Assembly (NCBI RefSeq): GCF_910592395.1
Contig: NC_088312.1
Location: 21,955,292-22,019,291, forward strand
Direction of reading: 5' to 3'
Length of the DNA stretch: 64,000 nucleotides
DNA from: Lineus longissimus
Lineage: Eukaryota; Nemertea; Pilidiophora; Heteronemertea; Lineidae
This document shows, piece after piece, positions 29,637 through 60,313 of the stretch. The translations under genes were made by a program, and so were the position numbers. Positions within the stretch are counted from its first letter, which is position 1. Every line of letters starts with the position of its first letter. Below the pieces are notes generated by a model, which saw only the letters and a program-made list of their open reading frames with translations, did no database searches and had not been told where the DNA came from.

Positions 29637-29649
29637 CTACTAATTATCA
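29637..29649 (-). repeat. Truncated Copia LTR stub at the array's left end
   Basis: Only CTACTAATTATCA, the outer 13 bp of the LTR, remains; the satellite begins immediately to its left. This would be the 3' LTR of copy A. Confidence 0.8.
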
Positions 29650-29859
29650 AACTCATCGCTCTTCTTTTTGTTTTATTGTTCTCATCCTGCATTGTTCCCT
29701 TCGAATTACGTATTGTGACAAAAATCCCTCAAAAACTTGCAAAGTCAAACACAGGAAAAGTCTAGTCCATTATCTATAGGCGGACTTAACGAAACTAAAA
29801 CGTCGAACGCATAAATAACATATTAACAAAGAATGTCTAGTCCCTTTCTTCAGGCGGGC

Positions 29860-32800
29860 TTAGAAAAGTTTCATTCCGGACAGCTTTCCGCTCTCCAGAA
29901 CACTTAGCAACTTGAGAGCTGATGCTCCCCGTTTGGTAAGACAGTCCGCCAGCTGTTCACATGACTCCACCCACATGATCTCGTTCACTTGTTTGTTGTC
30001 CACATTCTCCTTAATCGCAGACAATTCTAATCTCAGTCTCTTTTCTGTTACTGACTTGTTGGAGTTGATTGCCTCAAATAAAGATTTGCAGTCAGTAACA
30101 CATTTCAATGCCAATAGACGTGGATTTGCAACTCCATGTTGCAACTCACAGTACAACGTGGCCAGAAATATCCCTAGATCTATTCCGTCTGCCATCTCGA
30201 GTGTCTCAGCTGCTAGAGTGCTCCTTACCACTCTGCGTATTTTCTTGGAACTCCAGCAAACAGGGTTACATACTCCATCCTTTCCCATCAAAAAGACCAA
30301 TTGTCCTCCATGAGAACCATTATCTTCAGCATTTTCTAGTGATGCATCAGTGTATACAACGAGCTGCACATCCTCGTCTCCTAAGTACCTGAACCTGAGA
30401 GATACATGTTCTGATCTCACTCTCCTAATGATCTTGTTTGCTTCCAGCAAATCATTCACAGTGGCAGACTTCACGCGAGTTGCCAGCACTGCTGTATCGA
30501 ATATTATATCAGGCCTTGTTTGACGTGCGATCCAGAGCAACTGCCCAATTTTTGACCTCAAATGTTTCCGCTCTTCCTCGGCGACAGCAAAATCCTTTTG
30601 GGGTGATCGAGAGCTGCCTAACTGTATCGGTGTCAGACTAGAAGCAAAGCCCTCTTGGTTCACAAGAATGTCCCCATCTCTGTGTTGGACTTCCAAGCCA
30701 AGGTACTTAAAGGATTGCCTATCCTCTCTTCCCACATTTAGACTCTGCCTCAGCTGTTGAATTACTGACATCTCAAACTGTTTGGTGCCTCCCCATATGA
30801 AATCATCCACGTGAGCAGCCAACAGCCCAATCAGTTCTCCCTTACTATCCCGCCATGAGAACACGGCTGGATCCACTTTGGAGATTTTTCCTCCAGTTTC
30901 TATCATCACATCCTTCACTTTGTTGTACCAGCTAAGAGAAGCATCACTCAATCCATAGACGCACTTTTTCAGCCTCCAAACTTTTCCCGACACATTTGCT
31001 TCCTTGGGCGGTTTCACAAAGATGTCCCTCTCCAAACTATTTCCTTGAAGGAAGGCCGTCTTAATGTCCATTGAGTTTACCACCCACCTCCTCTGTGCGA
31101 TCACAGCCATCACTATCCTCAAGGAATCGTTCCCACAAGTGGGGGAATCTGTTTGGTTTGCACCATGCTCCTCAAACCCCCGAGCTACAAGTCTGGCCTT
31201 GGGGATTATTCCGGCTTCCGTATCCTTTAAAGTCAGAACCCATCTCGTTGATACACACTTTTGTCCTTGGTCCTGCACTTCTGAATAGACCTGATGATTG
31301 CTCCAACTCGAAAGTTCCTTTTGTTTAGCTTCTTCAAAGTCCACATTTTGGGAAATCATCACTTCATCTGGGTCCCGTCCTTGTTCTTCATGTTCAACAT
31401 CAACCAATTCTAGCCCATGAACCTTTTCCAAATCTACCGCCTCAGATCCACTATCTCCACCTATCTGTATATTATACCAGTGTTTGTATTTTCCACCTGC
31501 TTTCCCAGCACGGCTAACAACTTTGGCTGTCATCCTTTCCTCTTTTTCATCGTGTTTGAAAGCGATATCTTGTCCAACTTTGGTCCGATCAGTCTTAATC
31601 CCCGGGTTTTGTCCCTGTGCTCCCTCCTCTTGATCCTGGTCTTGGTTTGGATGATCATCTCCGTGTTGGATCGGCGGCTGATCATCATCATCTCCTGTTG
31701 CTGGTTTCTGTGGCTGCTCATCCTTGCTTGATCGATCCTGTCTGTTTCTATCATTGTCCTTGTTCTCTGTTGGATGTCCCGAAGAGTCCCCTGTCATAGC
31801 ACTGTGACTCCTCTGTTGGTTCACTAACTGAAGCCTACTGATATGAACCCTCACTAAGATCCCACCATGTCTGATGAATACAATTTTTCCATCTTGGCCA
31901 ATGACTGTGCCAGGACCCTTCCACTCCGTATTGTCTAGCCTCCTGTAGTATACTTTGTCACCCATCTGGTACTTGTCACCTGTGTATGACCGTGTCTGCT
32001 TCTTCAGGGCTCTCCTTATCCTCTCAGAGCACTCAGTCTCTGTGAAAGCCTTCCTCGTTGCGTAGAGGGCTCCTAGGTGTTCTCCTACGACCTTGCTGGT
32101 GGTAGTCCCCTCCAGTGCTGGCAACTGGTTGGTAAGGTTTGCAGGTAGATTTGGATTTCTGCCGAACACCAGCTGGTATGCACTGAAGCCATGTACATTT
32201 ATCATGCTATTCTTTGCATTGAGTGCCCATTTCAGTGCTGTCTCCCAACTGCAATTTCTGTCATGCTTTACCTTTAGCATTATGTTTGTTAGGACATGAT
32301 TGTGCTTTTCTAAGAGGCCATTACTGAATGGCGCGTACGCGGCAGTTGTGATCACCTTTATGTTGAAATTCTCACACAAATCACGTGTCTCCGAATTAGA
32401 AAATTCTCCGCCATTGTCACTGAACAATGAAGTTGGGGATCCAAAGATGCTAATCCAATGGGATAGAAACTCTTGGACGAACACTTGAGGCAACTTCCTT
32501 TTGACAATTGCCCCAGCACTGAAACGAGTGAACTCATCAATGATATGTAAATACCAAATGTTCCTGTCTAGCTCATGCAGGTCAACAGCTACGGTTTGGT
32601 TGAAATCCGTCGCTAAAGGGAGGCCCACTGCTGGTTTGGGAGGTACTTTCCTATACAAGGCAAGTTTGGCAAGTTTCACACTCTTTGACAACATCCGTCA
32701 GCATTTGAAAAATTTCTGGATTCTTCATGCCTGCACTGATCAGTAACTTCTGCAATCTATCTGCAGAAGCATGCCCGAACTGCTTGTGAATCTTAATCAA

Positions 32801-34249
32801 ATTTGCCTTTTGCCTTTGTGCATCCTGTAGTTCTGTCACCTGCATCACCTGTTTTGAGAGCTTCCTCCTCCATGATGAGCTGTTCCTGAAACAAGTCCGA
32901 GCCATTCTGTGTCACCAATACTTGATTTTCAACAAAACTAGCTTCCGCATCATGTGGTACTAACTCTATGCAATAGTGACCAGTAGAAGTTTGCAGTAGC
33001 TGCACAGGTTTACCAAACATCTTTGCAGTATCATTGCTTATGTCTAGTACTGTCTGCGCCCTTTTTAGAGCATCCTTGCTCAGAAGAAGTGGTAACTTGC
33101 TATTTACTACTTCTGTCTGGATGTTGCATGCGGTGCCAGCAATTTGTGCTGGAATCTGAACACATTTAAGCGATTTGACCTGTTTCCCATCACCGAATCT
33201 GAACACTCTTGTACTATCCTTACACGTATTGTACTATCCTTACACGTAATGCGCGACTGCTGATCTGTACCCAAGATGCTCTTGTAATTATCTAACCATT
33301 CTTGTCCACATACACTCCGTGTACATGCAGTATCGACTACTGCCGTCGAATATGCCTCGCACATGAACACTTCACTGGGGTCAGTGCCTTTTACAAACAA
33401 AGTTATATTACATTCCTCCTCATCTTTGCATTCCTTTATTTCCTCTCTGTGGGGGCAATCCTTTGCCCAATGAAAAACCGATTTACACACAGCGCACTTA
33501 GTACGATTTCCGAATCTATCGAGTGGGTTTGTTCCTCTGGGTACCTCACCTTTTTTATCGTTTCTACTACCAGCGTTGTAGTGTCCTGGTCCTTGATTCC
33601 TTCTCGTGTTGTTTGGAAATGATCTAGAATTAGACTGAGCATATGGAGCATTAGACTTGGTGTAACATGCATTCTCTGTTTTTACAGTAATGCCAGTGTC
33701 ATCGCTTGAACTATTACTCGGAGATGTACCCCCAAAAATTCTTTTCAGCGCCGACTTCATGGAACTGAACTTCAAATCAGAGGCAGCAGTCAGCGCTAGT
33801 TGTCGATCTGTGTCCGAAAGTCCCGCACTGTCGAGTAATTTGAAACTGAGAACAGCATCAGGTAACGACATGTTTGATTTCTTACAGAGCTCATGTCTCC
33901 TCTCAAACTCTATGATAAACTCTGTCATAGTTTGCCCTTCTTGTTTGTGATACTTATCAAAACTGGTGTAGTGTTCATACGCCACATCTACTTTGTCCCT
34001 TAGGAAAATCTTATCCAACTCCTGCAGGAGCGTTTTCAGTCCTTTGCCATCTTTTTCACTTAGTTTCTCTACCTTGATTTCGACAGCTCGTGCACGGGCT
34101 TGACCTTGTAGTGTAAGGGCAACAGCTAGTGCCTGCTTTGTGTCAGCTAAATCAGTCATTGTTTGCCATATAGCCAGTTCGTTTTTCCATGTTTCATAGT
34201 CCATCCCTGGGGTGAAAACTGGTGGGTTCTTGAAATTTGAAGCCGCCAT
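29860..34249 (-). pseudogene. Copia copy A gag-pol, broken by three frameshifts
   Basis: Gag starts at the ATG at 34249. A 20-bp tandem duplication (33210-33249) shifts the frame just after the protease. A 2-bp deletion near 32850 shifts it again before the integrase. The 7-bp insertion AGGCAAG at 32658-32664 ends the integrase zinc region at a TAG. From 32694 down to 29860 the rest of pol (integrase core, RT, RNase H; 944 codons) is open. It also lacks 12 bp (one RGPG unit) before the zinc knuckle. At many single-residue differences (KQALAV, HPNQ, GRDPDE) A agrees with copy F rather than its neighbours. Confidence 0.9.
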
Positions 34250-34315
34250 CTTGGAATTTTATGTCACTGTTTGAAAGTCAAGAGATCCGTGAAATCCTGA
34301 ATTGCTCTGCTACCA

Positions 34316-34557
34316 TGAAAATATCTGAGTAACCACTCACTTTGTACTTCAGCTATGATCCCTTGTGGTACCTTGTAACTTATCTGCTTGTCCAGGCCGG
34401 CCAGATTCCCATTCCTTTGGATCACTTTAGTTGCTCACCGAGCTCCTTCTGTCTCACTGCACCATGTGCTTTTTCCCTCTCTACAGATCACAGGTGTTTG
34501 GTCTAACACTATGATCACTGCCACCAAAGTCATGGTGGTAAGGTCTACTAATTATCA
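34316..34557 (-). repeat. Copia LTR between copies A and B
   Basis: 242 bp, TG...CA on the minus strand; shared as the 3' LTR of copy B and the 5' LTR of copy A. The primer-binding site for copy A follows directly at 34304-34315. Confidence 0.9.
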
Positions 34558-34767
34558 AACTCATCTCTCTTCTTTTTGTTCTATTGTTCTCATCCTGCAT
34601 TGTTCCCTTCGAATTACGTATTGTGACAAAAATCCCTCAAAAACTTGCAAAGTCAAACACAGGAAAAGTCTAGTCCATTATCTATAGGCGGACTTAACGA
34701 AACTAAAACGTCGAACGCATAAATAACATATTTACAAAGAATGTCTAGTCCCTTTCTTCAGGCGGGC

Positions 34768-37700
34768 TTAGAAAAGTTTCATTCCGGACAGCTTTCCGCT
34801 CTCCAGAACACTTAGCAACTTGAGAGCTGATGCTCCCCGTTTGGTAAGACAGTCCGCCAGCTGTTCACATGACTCCACCCACATGATCTCGTTCACTTGT
34901 TTGTTGTCCACATTCTCCTTAATCGCAGACAATTCTAATCTCAGTCTCTTTTTTGTTACTGACTTGTTGGAGTTGATTGCCTCAAATAAAGATTTGCAGT
35001 CAGTAACACATTTCAATGCCAATAGACGTGGATTTGCAACTCCATGTTGCAACTCACAGAACAACGTGGCCAGAAATATCCCTAGATCTATTCCGTCTGC
35101 CATCGAAAGTGTCTCAGCTGCTAGAGTGCTCCTTACCACTCTGCGTATTTTCTTGGAACTCCAGCAAACAGGGTTACATACTCCATCCTTTCCCATCAAA
35201 AAGACCAATTGTCCTCCATGAGAACCATTATCTTCAGCATTTCCTAGTGATGCATCAGTGTATACAACGAGCTGCACATCCTCGTCTCCTAAGTACCTGA
35301 ACCTTAGAGATACATGTTCTGATCTCACTCTCCTAATGATCTTGTTTGCTTCCAGCAAATCATTCACAGTGGCAGACTTCACGCGAGTTGCCAGCACTGC
35401 CGTATCGAATATTATATCAGGCCTTGTTTGACGTGCAATCCAGAGCAACTGCCCAATTTTTTACCTCAAATGTTTCCGCTCTTCCTCGGCGACAGCAAAA
35501 TCCTTTTGGAGTGATCGAGAGCTGCCTAACTGTATCGGTGTCAGACTAGAAGCAAAGCCCTCTTGGTTCACAAGAATGTCTCCATCTCTGTGTTGGACTT
35601 CCAAGCCAAGGTACTTAAAGGATTGCCTATCCTCTCTCCCCACATTTAGACTCTGCCTCAGCTGTTGAATTACTGACATCTCAAACTGTTTGGTGCCTCC
35701 CCATATGAAATCATCCACGTGAGCAGCCAACAGCCCAATCAGTTCTCCCTTAGTATCCCGCCATTAGAACACGGCTGGACTCACTTTGGAGATTTTTCCT
35801 CCAGTTTCTATCATCACATCCTTCACTTTGTTGTACCAGCTAAGAGAAGCATCACTCAATCCATAGACGCACTTTTTCAGCCTCCAAACTTTTCCCGACA
35901 CATTTGCTTCCTTGGGCGGTTTCACAAAGATGTCCCTCTCCAAACTATTTCTTTGAAGGAAGGCCGTCTTAATGTCCATTGAGTTTACCACCCACCTCCT
36001 CTGTGCGATCACAGCCATCACTATCCTCAAGGAATCGTTCCCACAAGTGGGGGAATCTGTTTGGTTTGCACCATGCTCCTCAAACCCCCGAGCTACAAGT
36101 CTGGCCTTGGGGATTATTCCGGCTTCCGTATCCTTTAAAGTCAGAACCCATCTCGTTGATACACACTTTTGTCCTTGGTCCTGCACTTCTGAATAGACCT
36201 GATGATTGCTCCAACTCGAAAGTTCCTTTTGTTTAGCTTCTTCAAAGTCCACATTTTGGGAAATCATCACTTCATCTGGGTCCTGTCCTTGTTCTTCATG
36301 TTCAACATCAACCAATTCTAGCCCATGAACCTTTTCCAAATCTACCGCCTCAGATCCACTATCTCCACCTAGGTACTGTATATTATACCAGTGTTTGTAT
36401 TTTCCACCTGCTTTCCCAGCACGGCTAACAACTTTGGCTGTCATCCTTTCCTCCTTTTCATCGTGTTTGAAAGCGATATCTTGTCCAACTTTGATCCGAT
36501 CAGTCCTAATCCCCGGGTTTTGTCCCTGTGCTCCCTCCTCTTGATCCTGGTCTTGGTTTGAATGATCATCTCCGTGTTGGATCGGCGGCTGATCATCATT
36601 ATCTCCTGTTGCTGGTTTCTGTGGCTGCTCATCCTTGCTTGATCGATCCTGTCTGTTTCTATCATTGTCCTTGTTCTCTGTTGGATGTCCCGAAGAGTCC
36701 CCTGTCATAGCACTGTGACTCCTCTGTTGGTTCACTAACTGAAGCCTACTGATATGAATCCTCACTAAGATCCCACCATGTCTGATGAATACAATTTTTC
36801 CATCTTGGCCAATGACTGTGCCAGGACCCTTCCACTCCGTATTGTCTAGCCTCCTGTAGTATACTTTGTCACCCATCTGGTACTTGTCACCTGTGTATGA
36901 CCGTGTCTGCTTCTTCAGGGCTCTCCTTATCCTCTCAGAGCACTCAGTCTCTGTGAAAGCCTTCCTCGTTGCGTAGAGGGCTCCTAGGTGTTCTCCTACG
37001 ACCTTGCTGGTGGTAGTCCCCTCCAGGGCTGGCAACTGGTTGGTAAGGTTTGCAGGTAGATTTGGATTTCTGCCGAACACCAGCTGGTATGCACTGAAGC
37101 CATGTACATTTATCATGCTATTCTTTGCATTGAGTGCCCATTTCAGTGCTGTCTCCCAACTGCAATTTCTGTCATGCTTTACCTTTAGCATTATGTTTGT
37201 TAGGACATGATTGTGCTTTTCTAAGAGGCCATTACTGAATGGCGCGTACGCGGCAGTTGTGATCACCTTTATGTTGAAATTCTCACACAAATCACGTGTC
37301 TCCGAATTAGAAAATTCTCCGCCATTGTCACTGAACAATGAAGTTGGGGGTCCAAAGATGCTAATCCAATGGGATAGAAACTCTTGGACGAACACTTGAG
37401 GCAACTTCCTTTTGACAATTGCCCCAGCACTGAAACGAGTGAACTCTCCGCCATTGTCACTGAACAATGAAGTTGGGGGTCCAAAGATGCTAATCCAATG
37501 GGATAGAAACTCTTGGACGAACACTTGAGGCAACTTCCTTTTGACAATTGCCCCAGCACTGAAACGAGTGAACTCATCAATGATATGTAAATACCAAATG
37601 TTCCTGTCTAGCTCATGCAGGTCAACAGCTACGGTTTGGTTGAAATCCGTCGCTAAAGGGAGGCCCACTGCTGGTCTGGGAGGTACTTTCCTATACATTT

Positions 37701-39276
37701 GGCAAGTTTCACACTCTTTGACAACATCCGTCAGCATTTGAAAAATTTCTGGATTCTTCATGCCTGCACTGATTAGTAACTTCTGCAATCTATCTGCAGA
37801 AGCATGCCCGAACTGCTTGTGAATCTTAATCAAATTTGCCTTTTGCCTTTGTGCATCCTGTAGTTCTGTCACCTGCATCACCTCTGTTTTGAGAACTTCC
37901 TCCTCCATGATGAGCTGTTCCTGAAACAAGTCCGAGCCATTCTGTGTCACCAATACTTGATTTTCAACAAAACTAGCTTCCGCATCATGTGGTACTAACT
38001 CTATGCAATAGTGACCAGTAGAAGTTTGCAGTAGCTGCACAGGTTTACCAAACATCTTTGCAGTATCATTGCTTATGTCTAGTACTGTCTGCGCCCTTTT
38101 TAGAGCATCCTTGCTCAGAAGAAGTGGTAACTTGCTATTTACTACTTCTGTCTGGATGTTGCATGCGGTGCCAGCAATTTGTGCTGGAATCTGAACACAT
38201 TTAAGCGATTTGACCTGTTTCCCATCACCGAATCTGAACACTCTTGTACTATCCTTACACGTAATGCGCGACTGCTGATCTGTACCCAAGATGCTCTTGT
38301 AATTATCTAACCATTCTTGTCCACATACACTCCGTGTACATGCAGTATCGACTACTGCCGTCGAATATGCCTCGCACATGAACACTTCACTGGGGTCAGT
38401 GCCTTTTACAAACAAAGTTATATTACATTCCTCCTCATCTTTGCATTCCTTTATTTCCTCTCTGTGGGGGCAATCCTTTGCCCAATGAAAAACCGATTTA
38501 CACACAGCGCACTTAGTACGATTTCCGAATCTATCGAGTGGGTTTGTTCCTCTGGGTACCTCACCTTTTTTATCGTTTCTACTACAGGCGTTGTAGTGTC
38601 CTGGGCCACGACCTGGTCCTTGATTCCTTCTCGTGTTGTTTGGAAATGATCTAGAATTAGACTGAGCATATGGAGCATTAGACTTGGTGTAACATGCATT
38701 CTCTGTTTTTACAGTAATGCCAGTGTCATCGCTTGAACTATTACTCGGAGATGTACCCCCAAAAATTCTTTTCAGCGCCGACTTCATGGAACTGAACTTC
38801 AAATCAGAGGCAGCAGTCAGCGCTAGTTGTCGATCTGTGTCTGAAAGTCCCGCACTGTCGAGTAATTTGAAACTGAGAACAGCATCAGGTAACGACATGT
38901 TTGATTTCTTACAGAGCTCATGTCTCCTCTCAAACTCTATGATAAACTCTGTCATAGTTTGCCCTTCTTGTTTGTGATACTTATCAAAACTGGTGTAGTG
39001 TTCATACGCCACATCTACTTTGTCCCTTAAGAAAATCTTATCCAACTCCTGCAGGAGCGTTTTCAGTCCTTTGCCATCTTTTTCACTTAGTTTCTCTACC
39101 TTGATTTCGACAGCTCGTGCACGGGCTTGACCTTGTAGTGTAAGGGCAACAGCTAGTGTCTGCTTTGTGTCAGCTAAATCAGTCATTGTTTGCCATGTAG
39201 CCAGTTCGTTTTTCCATGTTTCATAGTCCATCCCTGGGGTGAAAACTGGTGGGTTCTTGAAATCTGAAGCCGCCAT
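34768..39276 (-). pseudogene. Copia copy B gag-pol with duplicated integrase segment and two stops
   Basis: One frame is open from 39276 to 35764 (1170 codons). This copy lacks the 7-bp insertion seen in A, C, D and E. A 129-bp in-frame tandem duplication (37317-37445 / 37446-37574) repeats 43 residues that include the second catalytic aspartate of the integrase (FSDNGGEF). Two serine codons have become TAA stops, near 35764 in the RT and near 35461 before the RNase H; the frame is otherwise continuous to 34768. It could not make full RT. Confidence 0.9.
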
Positions 39277-39342
39277 CTTGGAATTTTATGTCACTGTTTG
39301 AAAGTCAAGAGATCCGTGAAATCCTGAATTGCTCTGCTACCA

Positions 39343-39584
39343 TGAAAATATCTGAGTAACCACTCACTTTGTACTTCAGCTATGATCCCTTGTGGTACCT
39401 TGTAACTTATCTGCTTGTCCAGGCCGGCCAGATTCCCATTCCTTTGGATCACTTTAGTTGCTCACCGAGCTCCTTCTGTCTCACTGCACCATGTGCTTTT
39501 TCCCTCTCTACAGATCACAGGTGTTTGGTCTAACACTATGATCACTGCCACCAAAGTCATGGTGGTAAGGTCTACTAATTATCA
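39343..39584 (-). repeat. Copia LTR between copies B and C
   Basis: 242 bp, same termini as the other LTRs, joined directly to the copy B primer-binding site on its left. Confidence 0.9.
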
Positions 39585-39794
39585 AACTCATCTCTCTTCT
39601 TTTTGTTCTATTGTTCTCATCCTGCATTGTTCCCTTCGAATTACGTATTGTGACAAAAATCCCTCAAAAACTTGCAAAGTCAAACACAGGAAAAGTCTAG
39701 TCCATTATCTATAGGCGGACTTAACGAAACTAAAACGTCGAACGCATAAATAACATATTTACAAAGAATGTCTAGTCCCTTTCTTCAGGCGGGC

Positions 39795-50268: not shown

Positions 50269-50510
50269 TGAAAATATCTGAGTAACCACTCACTTTGTAC
50301 TTCAGCTATGATCCCTTGTGGTACCTTGTAACTTATCTGCTTGTCCAGGCCGGCCAGATTCCCATTCCTTTGGATCACTTTAGTTGCTCACCGAGCTCCT
50401 TCTGTCTCACTGCACCATGTGCTTTTTCCCTCTCTACAGATCACAGGTGTTTGGTCTAACACTATGATCACTGCCACCAAAGTCATGGTGGTAAGGTCTA
50501 CTAATTATCA
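50269..50510 (-). repeat. Copia LTR between copies D and E
   Basis: 242 bp with the same TG...CA ends as the other LTRs. Confidence 0.9.
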
Positions 50511-50720
50511 AACTCATCTCTCTTCTTTTTGTTCTATTGCTCTCATCCTGCATTGTTCCCTTCGAATTACGTATTGTGACAAAAATCCCTCAAAAACTTG
50601 CAAAGTCAAACACAGGAAAAGTCTAGTCCATTATCTATAGGCGGACTTAACGAAACTAAAACGTCGAACGCATAAATAACATATTTACAAAGAATGTCTA
50701 GTCCCTTTCTTCAGGCGGGC

Positions 50721-53558
50721 TTAGAAAAGTTTCATTCCGGACAGCTTTCCGCTCGCCAGAACACTTAGCAAATTGAGAGCTGATGCTCCCCGTTTGGTAA
50801 GACAGTCCGCCAGCTGTTCACATGACTCCACCCACATGATCTCGTTCACTTGTTTGTTGTCCACATTCTCCTTAATCGCAGACAATTCTAATCTCAGTCT
50901 CTTTTCTGTTACTGACTTGTTGGAGTTGATTGCCTCAAATAAAGATTTGCAGTCAGTAACACATTTCAATGCCAATAGACGTGGATTTGCAACTCCATGT
51001 TGCAACTCACAGAACAACGTGGCCAGAAATATCCCTCGATCTATTCCGTCTGCCATCGAAAGTGTCTCAGCTGCTAGAGTGCTCCTTACCACTCTGCGTA
51101 TTTTCTTGGAACTCCAGCAAACAGGGTTACATACTCCATCCTTTCCCATCAAAAAGACCAATTGTCCTCCATGAGAACCATTATCTTCAGCATTTCCTAG
51201 TGATGCATCAGTGTATACAACGAGCTGCACATCCTCGTCTCCTAAGTACCTGAACCTTAGAGATACATGTTCTGATCTCACTCTCCTAATGATCTTGTTT
51301 GCTTCCAGCAAATCATTCACAGTGGCAGACTTCACGCGAGTTGCCAGCACTGCCGTATCGAATATTATATCAGGCCTTGTTTGACGTGCAATCCAGAGCA
51401 ACTGCCCAATTTTTGACCTCAAATGTTTCCGCTCTTCCTCGGCGACAGCAAAATCCTTTTGGAGTGATCGAGAGCTGCCTAACTGTATCGGTGTCAGACT
51501 AGAAGCAAAGCCCTCTTGGTTCACAAGAATGTCCCCATCTCTGTGTTGGACTTCCAAGCCAAGGTACTTAAAGGATTGCCTATCCTCTCTCCCCACATTT
51601 AGACTCTGCCTCAGCTGTTGAATTACTGACATCTCAAACTGTTTGGTGCCTCCCCATATGAAATCATCCACGTGAGCAGCCAACAGCCCAATCAGTTCTC
51701 CCTTACTATCCCGCCATGAGAACACGGCTGGACCCACTTTGGAGATTTTTCCTCCAGTTTCTAACATCACATCCTTCACTTTGTTGTACCAGCTAAGAGA
51801 AGCATCACTCAATCCATAGACGCACTTTTTCAGCCTCCAAACTTTTCCCGACACATTTGCTTCCTTGGGCGGTTTCACAAAGATGTCCCTCTCCAAACTA
51901 TTTCCTTGAAGGAAGGCCGTCTTAATGTCCATTGAGTTTACCACCCACCTCCTCTGTGCGATCACAGCCATCACTATCCTCAAGGAATCGTTCCCACAAG
52001 TGGGGGAATCTGTTTGGTTTGTACCATGCTCCTCAAACCCCCGAGCTACAAGTCTGGCCTTGGGGATTATTCCGGCTTCCGTATCCCTTAAAGTCAGAAC
52101 CCATCTCGTTGATACACACTTTTGTCCTTGGTCCTGCACTTCTGAATAGACCTGATGATTGCTCCAACTCGAAAGTTCCTTTTGTTTAGCTTCTTCAAAG
52201 TCCACATTTTGGGAAATCATCACTTCATCTGGGTCCTGTCCTTGTTCTTCATGTTCAACATCAACCAATTCCAGCCCATGAACCTTTTCCAAATCTACCG
52301 CCTCAGATCCACTATCTCCACCTAGGTACTGTATATTATACCAGTGTTTGTATTTTCCACCTGCTTTCCCAGCACGGCTAACAACTTTGGTTGTCATCCT
52401 TTCCTCCTTTTCATCGTGTTTGAAAGCGATATCTTGTCCAACTTTGATCCGATCAGTCCTAATCCCCGGGTTTTGTCCCTGTGCTCCCTCCTCTTGATCC
52501 TGGTCTTGGTTTGAATGATCATCTCCGTGTTGGATCGGCGGCTGATCATCATCATCTCCTGTTGCTGGTTTCTGTGGCTGCTCATCCTTGCTTGATCGAT
52601 CCTGTCTGTTTCTATCATTGTCCTTGTTCTCTGTTGGATGTCCCGAAGAGTCCCCTGTCATAGCACTGTGACTCCTCTGTTGGTTCACTAACTGAAGCCT
52701 ACTGATATGAACCCTCACTAAGATCCCACCATGTCTGATGAATACAATTTTTCCATCTTGGCCAATGACTGTGCCAGGACCTTTCCACTCCGTATTGTCT
52801 GGCCTCCTGTAGTATACTTTGTCACCCATCTGGTACTTGTCACCTGTGTATGACCGTGTCTGCTTCTTCAGGGCTCTCCTTATCCTCTCAGAGCACTCAG
52901 TCTCTGTGAAAGCCTTCCTCGTTGCGTAGAGGGCTCCTAGGTGTTCTCCTACGACCTTGCTGGTGGTAGTCCCCTCCAGGGCTGGCAACTGGTTGGTAAG
53001 GTTTGCAGGTAGATTTGGATTTCTGCCGAACACCAGCTGGTATGCACTGAAGCCATGTACATTTATCATGCTATTCTTTGCATTGAGTGCCCATTTCAGT
53101 GCTGTCTCCCAACTGCAATTTCTGTCATGCTTTACCTTTAGCATTATGTTTGTTAGGACATGATTGTGCTTTTCTAAGAGGCCATTACTGAATGGCGCGT
53201 ACGCGGCAGTTGTGATCACCTTTATGTTGAAATTCTCACACAAATCACGTGTCTCCGAATTAGAAAATTTTCCGCCATTGTCACTGAACAATGAAGTTGG
53301 GGGTCCAAAGATGCTAGTCCAATGGGATAGAAACTCTTGGACGAACACTTGAGGCAACTTCCTTCTGACAATTGCCCCAGCACTGAAACGAGTGAACTCA
53401 TCAATGATATGTAAATACCAAATGTTCCTGTCTAGCTCATGCAGGTCAACAGCTACGGTTTGGTTGAAATCCGTCGCTAAAGGGAGGCCCACTGCTGGTT
53501 TGGGAGGTACTTTCCTATACAAGGCAAGTTTGGCAAGTTTCACACTCTTTGACAACAT
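50721..53558 (-). CDS. Copia copy E second ORF: integrase core, RT, RNase H
   Basis: 945 codons open from 53558 to 50721. It carries the integrase catalytic core (FSDNGG, LLEKHN), the RT with HVDD, and the RNase H (YTDAS, AAET, TDCKS, ADCLTKR). The first codons only arise through the 7-bp insertion, so this is unlikely to be a natural start; translation would need a frameshift from the preceding ORF. A Lys/Glu difference (DNGGKF) sits next to the second integrase aspartate. Confidence 0.8.
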   Translation of the reverse strand: MLSKSVKLAKLALYRKVPPKPAVGLPLATDFNQTVAVDLHELDRNIWYLHIIDEFTRFSAGAIVRRKLPQVFVQEFLSHWTSIFGPPTSLFSDNGGKFSNSETRDLCENFNIKVITTAAYAPFSNGLLEKHNHVLTNIMLKVKHDRNCSWETALKWALNAKNSMINVHGFSAYQLVFGRNPNLPANLTNQLPALEGTTTSKVVGEHLGALYATRKAFTETECSERIRRALKKQTRSYTGDKYQMGDKVYYRRPDNTEWKGPGTVIGQDGKIVFIRHGGILVRVHISRLQLVNQQRSHSAMTGDSSGHPTENKDNDRNRQDRSSKDEQPQKPATGDDDDQPPIQHGDDHSNQDQDQEEGAQGQNPGIRTDRIKVGQDIAFKHDEKEERMTTKVVSRAGKAGGKYKHWYNIQYLGGDSGSEAVDLEKVHGLELVDVEHEEQGQDPDEVMISQNVDFEEAKQKELSSWSNHQVYSEVQDQGQKCVSTRWVLTLRDTEAGIIPKARLVARGFEEHGTNQTDSPTCGNDSLRIVMAVIAQRRWVVNSMDIKTAFLQGNSLERDIFVKPPKEANVSGKVWRLKKCVYGLSDASLSWYNKVKDVMLETGGKISKVGPAVFSWRDSKGELIGLLAAHVDDFIWGGTKQFEMSVIQQLRQSLNVGREDRQSFKYLGLEVQHRDGDILVNQEGFASSLTPIQLGSSRSLQKDFAVAEEERKHLRSKIGQLLWIARQTRPDIIFDTAVLATRVKSATVNDLLEANKIIRRVRSEHVSLRFRYLGDEDVQLVVYTDASLGNAEDNGSHGGQLVFLMGKDGVCNPVCWSSKKIRRVVRSTLAAETLSMADGIDRGIFLATLFCELQHGVANPRLLALKCVTDCKSLFEAINSNKSVTEKRLRLELSAIKENVDNKQVNEIMWVESCEQLADCLTKRGASALNLLSVLASGKLSGMKLF

Positions 53559-55107
53559 CCGTGAGCATTTGAAAAATTTCTGGATTCTTCATGCCTGCAC
53601 TGATCAGTAACTTCTGCAATCTATCTGCAGAAGCATGCCCGAACTGCTTGTGAATCTTAATCAAATTTGCCTTTTGCCTTTGTGCATCCTGTAGTTCTGT
53701 CACCTGCATCACCTCTGTTTTGAGAGCTTCCTCCTCCATGATGAGCTGTTCCTGAAACAAGTCCGAGCCATTCTGTGTCACCAATACTTGATTTTCAACA
53801 AAACTAGCTTCCGCATCATGTGGTACTAACTCTATGCAATAGTGACCAGTAGAAGTTTGCAGTAGCTGCACAGGTTTACCAAACATCTTTGCAGTATCAT
53901 TGCTTATGTCTAGTACTGTCTGCGCCCTTTTTAGAGCATCCTTGCTCAGAAGAAATGGTAACTTGCTATTTACTACTTCTGTCTGGATGTTGCATGCGGT
54001 GCCAGCAATTTGTGCTGGAATCTGAACACATTTAAGCGATTTGACCTGTTTCCCATCACCGAATCTGAACACTCTTGTACTATCCTTACACGTAATGCGC
54101 GACTGCTGATCTGTACCCAAGATGCTCTTGTAATTATCTAACCATTCTTGTCCACATACACTCCGTGTACATGCAGTATCGACTACTGCCGTCGAATATG
54201 CCTCGCACATGAACACTTCACTGGGGTCAGTGCCTTTTACAAACAAAGTTATATTACATTCCTCCTCATCTTTGCATTCCTTTATTTCCTCTCTGTGGGG
54301 GCAATCCTTTGCCCAATGAAAAACCGATTTACACACAGCGCACTTAGTACGATTTCCAAATCTATCGAGTGGGTTTGTTCCTCTGGGTACCTCACCTTTT
54401 TTATCGTTTCTACTACCAGCGTTGTAGTGTCCTGGGCCACGACCTGGTCCTTGATTCCTTCTCGTGTTGTTTGGAAATGATCTAGAATTAGACTGAGCAT
54501 ATGGAGCATTAGACTTGGTGTAACATGCATTCTCTGTTTTTACAGTAATGCCAGTGTCATCGCTTGAACTATTACTCGGAGATGTACCCCCAAAAATTCT
54601 TTTCAGCGCCGACTTCATGGAACTGAACTTCAAATCAGAGGCAGCAGTCAGCGCTAGTTGTCGATCTGTGTCCGAAAGTCCCGCACTGTCGAGTAATTTG
54701 AAACTGAGAACAGCATCAGGTAACGACATGTTTGATTTCTTACAGAGCTCATGTCTCCTCTCAAACTCTATGATAAACTCTGTCATAGTTTGCCCTTCTT
54801 GTTTGTGATACTTATCAAAACTGGTGTAGTGTTCATACGCCACATCTACTTTGTCCCTCAGGAAAATCTTATCCAACTCCTGCAGGAGCGTTTTCAGTCC
54901 TTTGCCATCTTTTTCACTTAGTTTCTCTACCTTGATTTCGACAGCTCGTGCACGGGCTTGACCTTGTAGTGTAAGGGCAACAGCTAGTGTCTGCTTTGTG
55001 TCAGCTAAATCAGTCATTGTTTGCCATGTAGCCAGTTCGTTTTTCCATGTTTCATAGTCCATCCCTGGGGTGAAAACTGGTGGGTTCTTGAAATTTGAAG
55101 CCGCCAT
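53515..55107 (-). CDS. Copia copy E first ORF: gag, protease and integrase zinc region
   Basis: 530 codons, intact from the ATG at 55107 to a TAG produced by the 7-bp insertion at 53522-53528. It contains the capsid-like N-terminus, a CX2CX4HX4C zinc knuckle (CAVCKSVFHWAKDC), an aspartic protease with DTA at the active site, and the integrase HH-CC zinc module. The end overlaps the next open frame by 44 nt in another frame. Copy E has no other obvious lesion, so it is a one-frameshift relative of copy F. Confidence 0.85.
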   Translation of the reverse strand: MAASNFKNPPVFTPGMDYETWKNELATWQTMTDLADTKQTLAVALTLQGQARARAVEIKVEKLSEKDGKGLKTLLQELDKIFLRDKVDVAYEHYTSFDKYHKQEGQTMTEFIIEFERRHELCKKSNMSLPDAVLSFKLLDSAGLSDTDRQLALTAASDLKFSSMKSALKRIFGGTSPSNSSSDDTGITVKTENACYTKSNAPYAQSNSRSFPNNTRRNQGPGRGPGHYNAGSRNDKKGEVPRGTNPLDRFGNRTKCAVCKSVFHWAKDCPHREEIKECKDEEECNITLFVKGTDPSEVFMCEAYSTAVVDTACTRSVCGQEWLDNYKSILGTDQQSRITCKDSTRVFRFGDGKQVKSLKCVQIPAQIAGTACNIQTEVVNSKLPFLLSKDALKRAQTVLDISNDTAKMFGKPVQLLQTSTGHYCIELVPHDAEASFVENQVLVTQNGSDLFQEQLIMEEEALKTEVMQVTELQDAQRQKANLIKIHKQFGHASADRLQKLLISAGMKNPEIFQMLTDVVKECETCQTCLV

Positions 55108-55173
55108 CTTGGAATTTTATGTCACTGTTTGAAAGTCAAGAGATCCGTGAAATCCTGAATTGCTCTGCTACCA

Positions 55174-55415
55174 TGAAAATATCTGAGTAACCACTCACTT
55201 TGTACTTCAGCTATGATCCCTTGTGGTACCTTGTAACTTATCTGCTTGTCCAGGCCGGCCAGATTCCCATTCCTTTGGATCACTTTAGTTGCTCACCGAG
55301 CTCCTTCTGTCTCACTGCACCATGTGCTTTTTCCCTCTCTACAGATCACAGGTGTTTGGTCTAACACTATGATCACTGCCACCAAAGTCATGGTGGTAAG
55401 GTCTACTAATTATCA
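55174..55415 (-). repeat. Copia LTR between copies E and F (3' LTR of F)
   Basis: 242 bp. By eye it differs from the LTR at the other end of copy F at two positions (CCAGGCC/CCGGGCC and CACAGG/CACGGG), which suggests a recent insertion or later homogenisation. Confidence 0.9.
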
Positions 55416-55421
55416 AACTCA

Positions 55422-55435
55422 TCTCTCTTCTTTTT
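55422..55435 (-). promoter_or_regulatory. Polypurine tract of Copia copy F
   Basis: On the minus strand 14 purines (AAAAAGAAGAGAGA) precede TGAGTT and then the LTR start TGATAATT. The tract primes plus-strand DNA synthesis in LTR elements. The 6-nt gap is unusual; if the LTR instead begins at TGAGTT it is 248 bp and abuts the tract. Confidence 0.6.
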
Positions 55436-55625
55436 GTTCTATTGTTCTCATCCTGCATTGTTCCCTTCGAATTACGTATTGTGACAAAAATCCCTCAAAA
55501 ACTTGCAAAGTCAAACACAGGAAAAGTCTAGTCCATTATCTATAGGCGGACTTAACGAAACTAAAACGTCGAACGCATAAATAACATATTTACAAAGAAT
55601 GTCTAGTCCCTTTCTTCAGGCGGGC

Positions 55626-58600
55626 TTAGAAAAGTTTCATTCCGGACAGCTTTCCGCTCTCCAGAACACTTAGCAACTTGAGAGCTGATGCTCCCCGTTT
55701 GGTAAGACAGTCCGCCAGCTGTTCACATGACTCCACCCACATGATCTCGTTCACTTGTTTGTTGTCCACATTCTCCTTAATCGCAGACAATTCTAATCTC
55801 AGTCTCTTTTCTGTTACTGACTTGTTGGAGTTGATTGCCTCAAATAAAGATTTGCAGTCAGTAACACATTTCAATGCCAATAGACGTGGATTTGCAACTC
55901 CATGTTGCAACTCACAGAACAACGTGGCCAGAAATATCCCTCGATCTATTCCGTCTGCCATCGAAAGTGTCTCAGCTGCTAGAGTGCTCCTTACCACTCT
56001 GCGTATTTTCTTGGAACTCCAGCAAAGAGGGTTACATACTCCATCCTTTCCCATCAAAAAGACCAATTGTCCTCCATGAGAACCATTATCTTCAGCATTT
56101 CCTAGTGATGCATCAGTGTATACAACGAGCTGCACATCCTCGTCTCCTAAGTACCTGAACCTTAGAGATACATGTTCTGATCTCACTCTCCTAATGATCT
56201 TGTTTGCTTCCAGCAAATCATTCACAGTGGCAGACTTCACGCGAGTTGCCAGCACTGCCGTATCGAATATTATATCAGGCCTTGTTTGACGTGCAATCCA
56301 GAGCAACTGCCCAATTATTGACCTCAAATGTTTCCGCTCTTCCTCGGCGACAGCAAAATCCTTTTGGAGTGATCGAGAGCTGCCTAACTGTATCGGTGTC
56401 AGACTAGAAGCAAAGCCCTCTTGGTTCACAAGAATGTCCCCATCTCTGTGTTGGACTTCCAAGCCAAGGTACTTAAAGGATTGCCTATCCTCTCTCCCCA
56501 CATTTAGACTCTGCCTCAGCTGTTGAATTACTGACATCTCAAACTGTTTGGTGCCTCCCCATATGAAATCATCCACGTGAGCAGCCAACAGCCCAATCAG
56601 TTCTCCCTTACTATCCCGCCATGAGAACACGGCTGGACCCACTTTGGAGATTTTTCCTCCAGTTTCTATCATCACATCCTTCACTTTGTTGTACCAGCTA
56701 AGAGAAGCATCACTCAATCCATAGACGCACTTTTTCAGCCTCCAAACTTTTCCCGACACATTTGCTTCCTTGGGCGGTTTCACAAAGATGTCCCTCTCCA
56801 AACTATTTCCTTGAAGGAAGGCCGTCTTAATGTCCATTGAGTTTACCACCCACCTCCTCTGTGCGATCACAGCCATCACTATCCTCAAGGAATCGTTCCC
56901 ACAAGTGGGGGAATCTGTTTGGTTTGCACCATGCTCCTCAAACCCCCGAGCTACAAGTCTGGCCTTGGGGATTATTCCGGCTTCCGTATCCTTTAAAGTC
57001 AGAACCCATTTCGTTGATACACACTTTTGTCCTTGGTCCTGCACTTCTGAATAGACCTGATGATTGCTCCAACTCGAAAGTTCCTTTTGTTTAGCTTCTT
57101 CAAAGTCCACATTTTGGGAAATCATCACTTCATCTGGGTCCCGTCCTTGTTTTTCATGTTCAACATCAACCAATTCTAGCCCATTAACCTTTTCCAAATC
57201 TACCGCCTCAGATCCACTATCTCCACCCAGGTACTGTATATTATACCAGTGTTTGTATTTTCCACCTGCTTTCCCAGCACGGCTAACAACTTTGGCTGTC
57301 ATCCTTTCCTCCTTTTCATCGTGTTTGAAAGCGATATCTTGTCCAACTTTGATCCGATCAGTCCTAATCCCCGGGATTTGTCCCTGTGCTCCCTCCTCTT
57401 GATCCTGGTCTTGGTTTGGATGATCATCTCCGTGTTGGATCGGCGGCTGATCATCATCATCTCCTGTTGCTGGTTTCTGAGGCTGCTCATCCTTGCTTGA
57501 TCGATCCTGTCTCTTTCTATCATTGTCCTTGTTCTCTGTTGGATGTCCCGAAGAGTCCCCTGTCATAGCACTGTGACTCCTCTGTTGGTTCACTAACTGA
57601 AGCCTACTGATATGAACCCTCACTAAGATCCCACCATGTCTGATGAATACAATTTTTCCATCTTGGCCAATGACTGTGCCAGGACCCTTCCACTCCGTAT
57701 TGTCTGGCCTCCTGTAGTATACTTTGTCACCCATCTGGTACTTGTCACCTGTGTATGACCGTGTCTGCTTCTTCAGGGCTCTCCTTATCCTCTCAGAGCA
57801 CTCAGTCTCTGTGAAAGCCTTCCTCGTTGCGTAGAGGGCTCCTAGGTGTTCTCCTACGACCTTGCTGGTGGTAGTCCCCTCCAGGGCTGGCAACTGGTTG
57901 GTAAGGTTTGCAGGTAGATTTGGATTTCTGCCGAACACCATTTGGTATGCACTGAAGCCATGTACATTTATCATGCTATTCTTTGCATTGAGTGCCCATT
58001 TCAGTGCTGTCTCCCAACTGCAATTTCTGTCATGCTTTACCTTTAGCATTATGTTTGTTAGGACATGATTGTGCTTTTCTAAGAGGCCATTACTGAATGG
58101 CGCGTACGCGGCAGTTGTGATCACCTTTATGTTGAAATTCTCACACAAATCACGTGTCTCCGAATTAGAAAATTCTCCGCCATTGTCACTGAACAATGAA
58201 GTTGGGGGTCCAAAGATGCTTATCCAACGGGATAGAAACTCTTGGACGAACACTTGAGGCAACTTCCTTTTGACAATTGCCCCAGCACTGAAACGAGTGA
58301 ACTCATCAATGATATGTAAATACCAAATGTTCCTGTCTAGCTCATGCAGGTCAACAGCTACGGTTTGGTTGAAATCCGTCGCTAAAGGGAGGCCCACTGC
58401 TGGTTTGGGAGGTACTTTCCTATACATTTGGCAAGTTTCACACTCTTTGACAACATCCGTCAGCATTTGAAAAATTTCTGGATTCTTCATGCCTGCACTG
58501 ATCAGTAACTTCTGCAATCTATCTGCAGAAGCATGCCCGAACTGCTTGTGAATCTTAATCAAATTTGCCTTTTGCCTTTGTGCATCCTGTAGTTCTGTCA

Positions 58601-60005
58601 CCTGCATCACCTCTGTTTTGAGAGCTTCCTCCTCCATGATGAGCTGTTCCTGAAACAAGTCCGAGCCATTCTGTGTCACCAATACTTGATTTTCAACAAA
58701 ACTAGCTTCCGCATCATGTGGTACTAACTCTATGCAATAGTGACCAGTAGAAGTTTGCAGTAGCTGCACAGGTTTACCAAACATCTTTACAGTATCATTG
58801 CTTATGTCTAGTACTGTCTGCGCCCTTTTTAGAGCATCCTTGCTCAGAAGAAGTGGTAACTTGCTATTTACTACTTCTGTCTGGATGTTGCATGCGGTGC
58901 CAGCAATTTGTGCTGGAATCTGAACACATTTAAGCGATTTGACCTGTTTCCCATCACCGAATCTGAACACTCTTGTACTATCCTTACACGTAATGCGCGA
59001 CTGCTGATCTGTACCCAAGATGCTCTTGTAATTATCTAACCATTCTTGTCCACATACACTCCGTGTACATGCAGTATCGACTACTGCCGTCGAATATGCC
59101 TCGCACATGAACACTTCACTGGGGTCAGTGCCTTTTACAAACAAAGTTATATTACATTCCTCCTCATCTTTGCATTCCTTTATTTCCTCTCTGTGGGGGC
59201 AATCCTTTGCCCAATGAAAAACCGATTTACACACAGCGCACTTAGTACGATTTCCGAATCTATCGAGTGGGTTTGTTCCTCTGGGTACCTCACCTTTTTT
59301 ATCGTTTCTACTACCAGCGTTGTAGTGTCCTGGGCCACGACCTGGTCCTTGATTCCTTCTTGTGTTGTTTGGAAATGATCTAGAATTAGACTGAGCATAT
59401 GGAGCATTAGACTTGGTGTAACATGCATTCTCTGTTTTTACAGTAATGCCAGTGTCATCGCTTGAACTATTACTCGGAGATGTACCCCCAAAAATTCTTT
59501 TCAGCGCCGACTTCATGGAACTGAACTTCAAATCAGAGGCAGCAGTCAGCGCTAGTTGTCGATCTGTGTCCGAAAGTCCCGCACTGTCGAGTAATTTGAA
59601 ACTGAGAACAGCATCAGGTAACGACATGTTTGATTTCTTACAGAGCTCATGTCTCCTCTCAAACTCTATGATAAACTCTGTCATAGTTTGCCCTTCTTGT
59701 TTGTGATACTTATCAAAACTGGTGTAGTGTTCATACGCCACATCTACTTTGTCCCTTAGGAAAATCTTATCCAACTCCTGCAGGAGCGTTTTCAGTCCTT
59801 TGCCATCTTTTTCACTTAGTTTCTCTACCTTGATTTCGACAGCTCGTGCACGGGCTTGACCTTGTAGTGTAAGGGCAACAGCTAGTGCCTGCTTTGTGTC
59901 AGCTAAATCAGTCATTGTTTGCCATATAGTTAGTTTGTTTTTCCATGTTTCATAGTCCATCCCTGGGGTGAAAACTGGTGGGTTCTTGAAATTTGAAGCC
60001 GCCAT
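55626..60005 (-). CDS. Copia copy F gag-pol polyprotein, intact single ORF
   Basis: 1459 codons without interruption. By residue: gag 1-250; zinc knuckle CX2CX4HX4C at about 256-269; protease DTA at 310-312; integrase zinc ligands H486, H491, C522, C525; integrase triad D552, D607, E643 (35 residues between the last two, a standard DD35E); acidic, glutamine-rich linker 811-880; RT with D1058 in MDIKTAFLQG and HVDD at 1143-1146; RNase H D1298, E1345, D1383, D1432. Integrase before RT defines Ty1/Copia. With no stop or shift between gag and pol, a single polyprotein would be cut by its own protease. Complete LTRs, a primer site and a purine tract flank it, so it is the only copy here that looks competent for transposition. 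Confidence 0.95.
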   Translation of the reverse strand: MAASNFKNPPVFTPGMDYETWKNKLTIWQTMTDLADTKQALAVALTLQGQARARAVEIKVEKLSEKDGKGLKTLLQELDKIFLRDKVDVAYEHYTSFDKYHKQEGQTMTEFIIEFERRHELCKKSNMSLPDAVLSFKLLDSAGLSDTDRQLALTAASDLKFSSMKSALKRIFGGTSPSNSSSDDTGITVKTENACYTKSNAPYAQSNSRSFPNNTRRNQGPGRGPGHYNAGSRNDKKGEVPRGTNPLDRFGNRTKCAVCKSVFHWAKDCPHREEIKECKDEEECNITLFVKGTDPSEVFMCEAYSTAVVDTACTRSVCGQEWLDNYKSILGTDQQSRITCKDSTRVFRFGDGKQVKSLKCVQIPAQIAGTACNIQTEVVNSKLPLLLSKDALKRAQTVLDISNDTVKMFGKPVQLLQTSTGHYCIELVPHDAEASFVENQVLVTQNGSDLFQEQLIMEEEALKTEVMQVTELQDAQRQKANLIKIHKQFGHASADRLQKLLISAGMKNPEIFQMLTDVVKECETCQMYRKVPPKPAVGLPLATDFNQTVAVDLHELDRNIWYLHIIDEFTRFSAGAIVKRKLPQVFVQEFLSRWISIFGPPTSLFSDNGGEFSNSETRDLCENFNIKVITTAAYAPFSNGLLEKHNHVLTNIMLKVKHDRNCSWETALKWALNAKNSMINVHGFSAYQMVFGRNPNLPANLTNQLPALEGTTTSKVVGEHLGALYATRKAFTETECSERIRRALKKQTRSYTGDKYQMGDKVYYRRPDNTEWKGPGTVIGQDGKIVFIRHGGILVRVHISRLQLVNQQRSHSAMTGDSSGHPTENKDNDRKRQDRSSKDEQPQKPATGDDDDQPPIQHGDDHPNQDQDQEEGAQGQIPGIRTDRIKVGQDIAFKHDEKEERMTAKVVSRAGKAGGKYKHWYNIQYLGGDSGSEAVDLEKVNGLELVDVEHEKQGRDPDEVMISQNVDFEEAKQKELSSWSNHQVYSEVQDQGQKCVSTKWVLTLKDTEAGIIPKARLVARGFEEHGANQTDSPTCGNDSLRIVMAVIAQRRWVVNSMDIKTAFLQGNSLERDIFVKPPKEANVSGKVWRLKKCVYGLSDASLSWYNKVKDVMIETGGKISKVGPAVFSWRDSKGELIGLLAAHVDDFIWGGTKQFEMSVIQQLRQSLNVGREDRQSFKYLGLEVQHRDGDILVNQEGFASSLTPIQLGSSRSLQKDFAVAEEERKHLRSIIGQLLWIARQTRPDIIFDTAVLATRVKSATVNDLLEANKIIRRVRSEHVSLRFRYLGDEDVQLVVYTDASLGNAEDNGSHGGQLVFLMGKDGVCNPLCWSSKKIRRVVRSTLAAETLSMADGIDRGIFLATLFCELQHGVANPRLLALKCVTDCKSLFEAINSNKSVTEKRLRLELSAIKENVDNKQVNEIMWVESCEQLADCLTKRGASALKLLSVLESGKLSGMKLF

Positions 60006-60060
60006 CTTGGAATTTTATGTCACTGTTTGAAAGTCAAGAGATCCGTGAAATCCTGAATTG

Positions 60061-60071
60061 CTCTGCTACCA
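60061..60071 (-). promoter_or_regulatory. Primer-binding site of Copia copy F (initiator tRNA-Met)
   Basis: On the minus strand TGGTAGCAGAG follows the LTR's terminal CA with no gap. It is complementary to the last 11 nt of animal initiator tRNA-Met (CTCTGCTACCA). The same sequence follows every LTR in the array. Confidence 0.8.
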
Positions 60072-60313
60072 TGAAAATATCTGAGTAACCACTCACTTTG
60101 TACTTCAGCTATGATCCCTTGTGGTACCTTGTAACTTATCTGCTTGTCCGGGCCGGCCAGATTCCCATTCCTTTGGATCACTTTAGTTGCTCACCGAGCT
60201 CCTTCTGTCTCACTGCACCATGTGCTTTTTCCCTCTCTACAGATCACGGGTGTTTGGTCTAACACTATGATCACTGCCACCAAAGTCATGGTGGTAAGGT
60301 CTACTAATTATCA
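60072..60313 (-). repeat. Copia LTR at the right end of the array (5' LTR of F)
   Basis: 242 bp. Its outer edge TGATAATTAG meets BEL/Pao integrase sequence at 60314, which fixes this LTR boundary. Confidence 0.9.

Follow-up and report, generated by a model that had tools for sequence, protein, structure and literature searches.

How a locus comes to hold six copies of one Copia retrotransposon, lying head to tail and sharing single long terminal repeats (LTRs), is the question raised by the array described here, which lies in a window of 64,000 nucleotides (the whole stretch of Lineus longissimus DNA analysed). The answer that we consider probable is that one inserted element gave rise to a dimer, which was then enlarged on the spot to six units through successive unequal homologous exchanges.

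Anatomy of the array and its insertion site

Self-comparison of the window delimits six minus-strand Copia gag-pol internal regions with single 242-bp LTRs between them, from 29637 to 60313, at a spacing of about 4.9 kb, or 6.0 kb where a later insert sits. The sequence-only reading had given this head-to-tail arrangement correctly to the base; the refinements to that first description are that the left end of the array is without a full LTR and that the coding strand is the minus strand. The internal regions, all in a single orientation, are accompanied by five junction LTRs and one outer LTR, these six being complete (242 bp each, from TG end to CA end). The features are as follows.

27322-29636, plus strand: 281-bp satellite array, left flank; the same family is found again past the right flank, at C5:22027645-22029837
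29637-29649, minus strand: leftmost LTR remnant, 13 of 242 bp, joined to the satellite
29650-34315, minus strand: internal region A, with a 20-bp tandem duplication and a 7-bp frameshifting insertion common to A, C, D and E
34316-34557, minus strand: LTR shared by A and B, 242 bp
34558-39342, minus strand: internal region B, with 129 bp duplicated in tandem within the integrase region
39343-39584, minus strand: LTR shared by B and C
39585-44233, minus strand: internal region C, with the 7-bp insertion and a 13-bp deletion common to C and D
44234-44475, minus strand: LTR shared by C and D, with one private substitution
44476-50268, minus strand: internal region D, broken by a 1142-bp insert
48352-49493, no strand assigned: the 1142-bp repeat insert, in D only, with a (CGT)n tract and internal repeats of about 300 bp
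50269-50510, minus strand: LTR shared by D and E
50511-55173, minus strand: internal region E
55174-55415, minus strand: LTR shared by E and F
55416-60071, minus strand: internal region F, with an unbroken gag-pol frame of 1462 aa containing rve and RVT_2
60072-60313, minus strand: outer 5' LTR, without two derived bases of the five junction LTRs, with an exact terminus and GCAAC flank
60314-62966, minus strand: interrupted Pao/BEL element with Peptidase_A17; a 98.5-98.6% copy lies 6.2 kb further right

The LTR length of 242 bp was fixed independently, from four genome loci that match nothing but the LTR stretch, three of them at 95-96% and one at 81%. By the filter applied to tandem LTR retrotransposons in rice, a structure starts and ends with an LTR; here the right end is complete, an exact LTR terminus within the Pao/BEL element, and the left end is the 13-bp remnant directly against the satellite. 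A target duplication around the whole array is absent, with GCAAC at the right and satellite at the left, and none is found at any of the five junctions. The unoccupied site is preserved in the neighbouring Pao copy, which runs unbroken through the Copia insertion point; the remainder of the interrupted copy was sought in the window, where a single 16-base chance match was the only result. The Pao duplication, which is internally joined, directly adjoins the Copia array.

In the 1462-aa gag-pol frame the integrase (rve, residues 561-639) stands upstream of the reverse transcriptase (RVT_2, residues 994-1205), and both of the two longest frames, F and B, in which domain order was examined have rve upstream of RVT_2, which is the Copia order. 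As in Ty1/Copia elements, the LTRs have TG..CA ends and other insertions of the family carry 5-bp duplications, perfect in the four of four examined (CCAAC at the C2 copy, CAGGT at the C3 copy, GTCAT at a second array on C5 and ATTGG at a solo LTR on C4). Directly next to the LTR lies a candidate primer binding site, TGGTAGCAGAG, which may resemble the 3' end of initiator-methionine tRNA. Neither tRNA genes, in a search run in bacterial setting, nor RNA families at gathering score were found. The best protein matches bearing an organism name are from a limpet and fishes. A host gene repeat, suggested by the 5-kb period, was ruled out by the Pfam content.

Differences among the units

Any two units differ by 20-50 substitutions per ~4.9 kb (0.4-1.0%), D and E being the closest pair with 20, and so small a difference excludes chance resemblance. 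The counts of derived and private sites that follow, like those on neutrality, exclude every alignment column in which one or more of the six units has a gap. With the C2 and C3 copies as root, and with five sites where these disagree or one is missing set apart and three more marked uncertain, the derived substitutions common to groups of units are nested: four sites in BCDEF, four in BCDE, three in CDE, two in DE and two, located in the LTR, in ABCDE. Private substitutions number 18 in F, 16 in B, 15 in C, 13 in A, 9 in E and 7 in D. Moreover, two derived bases are present in all five junction LTRs and missing from the outer one. The 7-bp insertion of A, C, D and E and the 13-bp deletion of C and D are both frameshifting; private indels occur in units A to D, with the insert in D besides, but in neither E nor F.

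At a distance of 1.2 Mb on C5, inside one target duplication, lies a second array, also of six copies and of the same rare Copia family; it has the outgroup state at the BCDEF, BCDE, ABCDE and DE sites and at the first three CDE sites. In a tree of the units built without this second array, the BCDEF, BCDE and CDE forks received 91/96, 98/93 and 97/93 (bootstrap/SH-aLRT). Two of the five inner forks reach the tree tool's own mark; BCDEF, with bootstrap 91, falls short of it, and the D+E fork stays below 80.

Private and shared substitutions of the array both fit neutral decay, and those of the C2 copy do not. Nonsynonymous and stop changes, with a neutral expectation of 0.744, make up 52 of the 75 private in-frame substitutions (p 0.35) and 13 of the 16 shared ones (p 0.78), which gives a neutral-like 65 of 91 for all in-frame differences. 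Changes private to the separate C2 copy include only 5 of 18 of this kind (p 4.5e-5; shared array versus C2-private changes, Fisher p 0.0026). The C3 copy, a second control, is indistinguishable from neutral (47 of 71, p 0.13), so that the selection contrast is drawn from C2 alone. The shared class is small, with 16 sites.

Proposed growth of the array and its alternatives

The history that we propose would begin with one Copia element entering a Pao/BEL element situated in the 281-bp satellite. We infer that this single element became a dimer, by LTR-LTR unequal exchange or by arriving as such (a founding dimer of multimeric arrival is possible), and that the dimer would have grown in situ to six units by repeated unequal homologous exchange, or by break repair of equivalent effect, templated by a misaligned sister or homologue, the steps being far enough apart for neutral mutations to accumulate. 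The outer units, A and F, would have split early and the inner ones later. A single later deletion may then have started inside the leftmost LTR and reached into the satellite, removing the remainder of the Pao copy together with the left border and the target duplication; the 1142-bp repeat would have inserted into unit D, presumably after the last duplication.

Copying in place by unequal exchange is favoured because the derived mutations are nested, the shared changes neutral, the frameshifting indels shared and the junction LTRs of one common type; the array would be the product neither of six insertions nor of one multimeric insertion alone. Of the two origins offered by the sequence-only reading, unequal crossing-over is supported by these four lines, whereas a multimeric or rolling-circle product is not supported as sole origin, since the copies seem not to have split all at once.

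A single ladder of births does not accommodate every site: the 7-bp insertion and the CE, AB, BDEF and CD sites conflict with it, which calls for conversion or for crossovers within units. In favour of exchange, the units form mosaics: A is 18-24 differences away from the others in the outer-left third, against 6-19 among B-F, and in the gag+LTR third the figure for A is 5-8 and that for the outer end of F against B-E 12-15. Distance follows physical order weakly (Mantel r 0.42, with 52 of 720 orders equally high) and so is not main evidence. That exchange went on other than by the plain copying of blocks is shown by the conflicting sites and the mosaic thirds, as expected if gene conversion within a pre-existing array had made the nesting; the nesting would then say little on the growth in copy number, a reading compatible with unequal exchange. 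As the explanation of the array it is doubtful, since copy number still needs a source and the single type of LTR found at all five junctions is most easily understood if the junctions were copied along with the units.

It is unlikely that a ready-made multimer (a 1-LTR-circle concatemer, template-switched or recombined cDNA, or read-through tandem RNA) entered the site as six units in one step. Such a hexamer should leave a star tree, in place of which supported inner forks are seen, and would not account for frameshifting indels held in common or for shared substitutions without a selection signature, even though the majority of changes are private and the inner branches short. Multimers of Ty1 cDNA promoted by homologous recombination are stated for yeast (PMC7524711), and a single tandem insertion has been argued for one rice locus (PMC11899658).

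Decidedly unlikely is serial addition, in which fresh Copia cDNAs would have recombined one by one into a resident element, independently of integrase and in a Ty1-like manner; integrase-independent integration into pre-existing elements in yeast is cited in PMC11899658. A complex small indel is common to unit A and the C2 copy and absent from B-F, and A is not separated from C2 in the tree, which leaves room for a second source for this unit. Units drawn from an active source should, however, differ under selection, as C2 does, and not in the neutral-like manner of the array; two frameshifting indels are, furthermore, common to several units.

That mis-assembly expanded one or two real units into the six seen is very unlikely. 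With HiFi fragments of 12-20 kb after shearing (PMC8593623), against 30.7 kb for the array, no spanning read is expected; yet every unit has 7-18 private substitutions, A-D have indels and D an insert of their own, the window contains no N, and 20-50 differing sites per pair should let HiFi reads be distinguished. The unit count could be off by one. Finally, six independent insertions, already held unlikely by the sequence-only reading, found no supporting point and are refuted by five junctions with one LTR each and no target duplication, against perfect 5-bp duplications at all four other insertions.

With growth in place by unequal exchange as the preferred reading, the question of growth is answered for this locus with fair confidence: the old mutations of the six units order their births in part, and the C2 sister insertion, under selection, serves as a control. 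In the second array, where sites were counted in the 357-3440 stretch only, given four or more of the six copies and agreement among three or more of the four outgroup rows, the repeat unit is a 3.08-kb internal segment, unlike the LTR-bounded units of the main array. As a single chromosome carries two arrays of six copies from the same rare family, LTR-bounded and internally joined arrays can be compared in a natural setting, which bears on the route from mobile element to tandem repeat. Tentatively, distal C5, or the Copia family itself, might have an exceptional tendency to serial tandem amplification regardless of the homology from which it starts, as the LTR-bounded units, the array of 3.08-kb internal segments and the internally joined Pao duplication beside the main array would illustrate; if true, the arrays would have been caught early in turning a coding LTR element into satellite.

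Comparison with known tandem arrays

Such an array was not reported in a nemertean in a literature search covering titles and abstract openings among the matches listed, with most subscription journals outside its coverage. Multimers of a Copia-type element are known as the Ty1 multimeric arrays of yeast, which have single shared LTRs and were reportedly described by Bryk et al. in 2001. Ty1 multimers are described as formed from cDNA (PMC7524711), whereas the mutations found here point to growth after insertion.

In plants, tandem LTR-retrotransposon structures have been described in rice, Arabidopsis, almond and cotton (PMC11899658), with perfect target duplications in 10 of 28 clear cases; recombination and tandem insertion are both considered in that paper, whose discussion does not decide between an inserted multimer and growth in place. 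As in the present array, single LTRs alternate with internal regions in one orientation and unit identity is high. The two rice loci given in detail are, however, two-element tandems, whereas six coding-Copia internal regions are found here, in an animal, with one border lost and the order of unit births partly readable from mutations.

Six internal regions in a row had been called unusual by the sequence-only reading, a reasonable judgement where a full-length coding element is concerned; the Cassandra TRIM arrays of plants reach up to 12 repeats (PMC7215508). These are likewise long LTR-internal arrays with incomplete end units reported; Cassandra is without coding capacity and its authors report no unit differences, against 0.4-1.0% here. 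The tandem LTR elements of the kangaroo, as described in PMC11899658, also belong to an animal and share their internal LTRs, but are centromeric. Since tandem LTR arrays are already known from rice, Cassandra and kangaroo, the present array can be regarded as an edge-truncated form of a known type.

Anatomy of the array and its locus

Six Copia internal regions (A to F, left to right), all on the minus strand, alternate with 242-bp LTRs, which bears out the sequence-only reading that six such regions stand here with single LTRs. The locus comprises the following features (C5 is the contig of the window; bare positions are window positions):

29637-60313, minus strand: six-unit Copia array
60072-60313: outer LTR, at the right end of the array
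48352-49493: 1142-bp insert in unit D
C5:22015605-22027644 (window 60314 onward): Pao/BEL tandem duplication, its junction internal and apparently non-LTR
27322-29636 and C5:22027645-22029837: 281-bp satellite, on both flanks of the compound locus

On the coding strand, the LTR starts with TGATAATTAGTAG, ends with TATTTTCA and is directly followed by TGGTAGCAGAG, which we take to resemble a methionine-initiator primer site. The LTR length is confirmed by four loci that match no more than this stretch, three of them at 95-96% and the fourth at 81%. In the longest frame (1462 aa, unit F), integrase precedes reverse transcriptase, which is the Copia order. Six LTRs are complete, the leftmost being reduced to 13 bp adjoining the satellite, while on the right the array stops exactly at an LTR end, with GCAAC and then the Pao/BEL element beyond it. 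The 1142-bp insert is confined to unit D, and is therefore presumably younger than the last duplication; the insert, a repeat, contains (CGT)n, with GCTCACC/GGTGAGC near its ends. The bases flanking a solo LTR of the same family in C4 match part of this insert by eye.

Along C5 the layout is satellite, Copia six times, Pao twice, and satellite again past the second Pao copy, from C5:22027645. The Pao stretch right of the array has a copy 6.2 kb further right, in the same orientation and with 98.5-98.6% identity. Since this neighbouring copy runs through the Copia insertion point, the unoccupied site is visible, and GCAAC is present there once. The Pao portion expected left of the array was not found in the window. 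We infer that one deletion explains the left edge: it would have started inside the leftmost LTR, taken all but 13 bp of it together with the Pao remainder, and ended in the satellite. The second Pao copy holds an insert of ~370 bp, possibly a fragment of another retroelement from its likeness. The satellite has at least 100 genome matches on many contigs, and a 226-bp piece of window 25974-26198 is found again within its right block (94%).

The assembly totals 391,118,348 bases in 30 contigs, the window being C5:21955292-22019291. The published account of the bootlace-worm assembly describes a 391-Mb span obtained with Hifiasm from 79-fold PacBio long reads, with HiFi libraries of 12-20 kb fragments (PMC8593623).

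Divergence of the units and probable growth of the array

Pairwise substitutions between units range from 20 (D/E) to 50 (C/F). Rooted on the C2 and C3 copies, two other genomic copies of the family, the derived states nest (BCDEF 4, BCDE 4, CDE 3, DE 2), in addition to private derived substitutions (F 18, B 16, C 15, A 13, E 9, D 7); a second array of the family, 1.2 Mb away, has the outgroup state at the nested sites. In the maximum-likelihood tree, support is 91/96 for BCDEF, 98/93 for BCDE and 97/93 for CDE, only the last two passing the mark of the tree tool; C, D and E are not separated from each other in it, nor A from the C2 copy. When these nested splits are set against the physical order A B C D E F, the end units A and F appear to have split first and the inner units later, as expected of an array growing from within.

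The array is also a mosaic. In its outer-left third, unit A has 18-24 differences to the others, which have 6-19 among themselves; in its outer-right third, unit F has 12-15 to B-E and 7 to A. All five junction LTRs carry two bases missing from the outer right LTR. At both sites this outer LTR agrees with the LTRs of C2, C4 and the second array; in the C3 copy, the 3' LTR agrees with the junction LTRs at one of the two. A 7-bp insertion is common to A, C, D and E and a 13-bp deletion to C and D, neither length being a multiple of three. Because some sites (the 7-bp insertion, CE, AB, BDEF, CD) conflict with a single ladder, conversion or crossovers inside units must also have taken place. The correlation of distance with physical order is weak, 52 of 720 orders being as high. 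A second source for unit A would fit a complex small indel in the 57230 region, which only A and the C2 copy have; B-F, C3 and the second array lack it.

There is good evidence for stepwise growth in place, and on these sequence comparisons exchange after insertion is the process indicated for the growth phase. Unequal crossing-over, earlier proposed as one possible origin of the array, is supported for its growth; the first dimer may have come from it or have been inserted as a dimer.

Decay, selection and the rest of the family

Within the reading frame, nonsynonymous or stop changes make up 52 of the 75 private array substitutions and 13 of the 16 shared ones (neutral expectation 0.744). 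For the C2 insertion the private count is only 5/18 (p 4.5e-5), a sign that the source lineage was under selection. Array and C2 changes differ by Fisher test (shared p 0.0026, private p 0.0023), a contrast which rests on C2, since the changes separating C3 from the rest (47/71, p 0.13) are indistinguishable from neutral. The second array looks alike in its raw counts (37/46 private, 9/10 shared, 5/9 common to all copies). Given the neutral-like changes and the indels common to units, mutations arisen in decaying DNA were evidently passed from one unit to another, an indication that the copying took place on the chromosome.

The family is rare, with at least four loci beyond the array: one element in C2, one in C3, the tandem locus C5:23183637-23205255 and the C4 solo LTR, all four with perfect 5-bp target duplications. 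The C2 flanks (1-760 and 5895-6801 of the extracted locus) hold repeats ~73-81% similar to pieces of the 281-bp satellite. The second C5 array is a single insertion, bounded by two outer LTRs and the target duplication GTCAT. Its repeat unit is a 3.08-kb internal segment, of which six copies follow each other without intervening LTRs; inserts are found in copy 3 and deletions in copies 5 and 6, and at the repeat junctions the aligned pieces overlap by ~2 bp.

Genome-wide, at least 70 reverse-transcriptase matches fall in 44 loci (same-strand matches <15 kb apart merged), and among these listed matches long regular arrays occur at only two loci, both of this family. Given the first array, three of the 43 other loci belong to the family, so that the chance odds of the second falling in it (~3 in 43) are suggestive only. 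That the distal region of C5, or this family in itself, is prone to amplify in tandem is possible, though less likely than not. At C17:3574539-3578036, two Copia reverse-transcriptase matches on one strand start ~3.2 kb apart, possibly a small tandem.

Comparison with known tandem LTR arrays

Tandem LTR elements with common internal LTRs have been described in rice, Arabidopsis, almond and cotton, in a report which refers further to kangaroo centromeres, Drosophila and yeast (PMC11899658), and Cassandra arrays reach up to 12 repeats (PMC7215508). The present array is a real, rather large case of this known kind. In the rice account, no decision is taken between tandem insertion and later recombination (PMC11899658), whereas here, for the growth phase, the evidence favours exchange after insertion. 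Because its left border has been lost, the array falls outside the rice filter (an LTR at both ends) and has no flanking target duplication. It works like the rice-type tandem LTR arrays, of which it may best be regarded as an edge-truncated variant.
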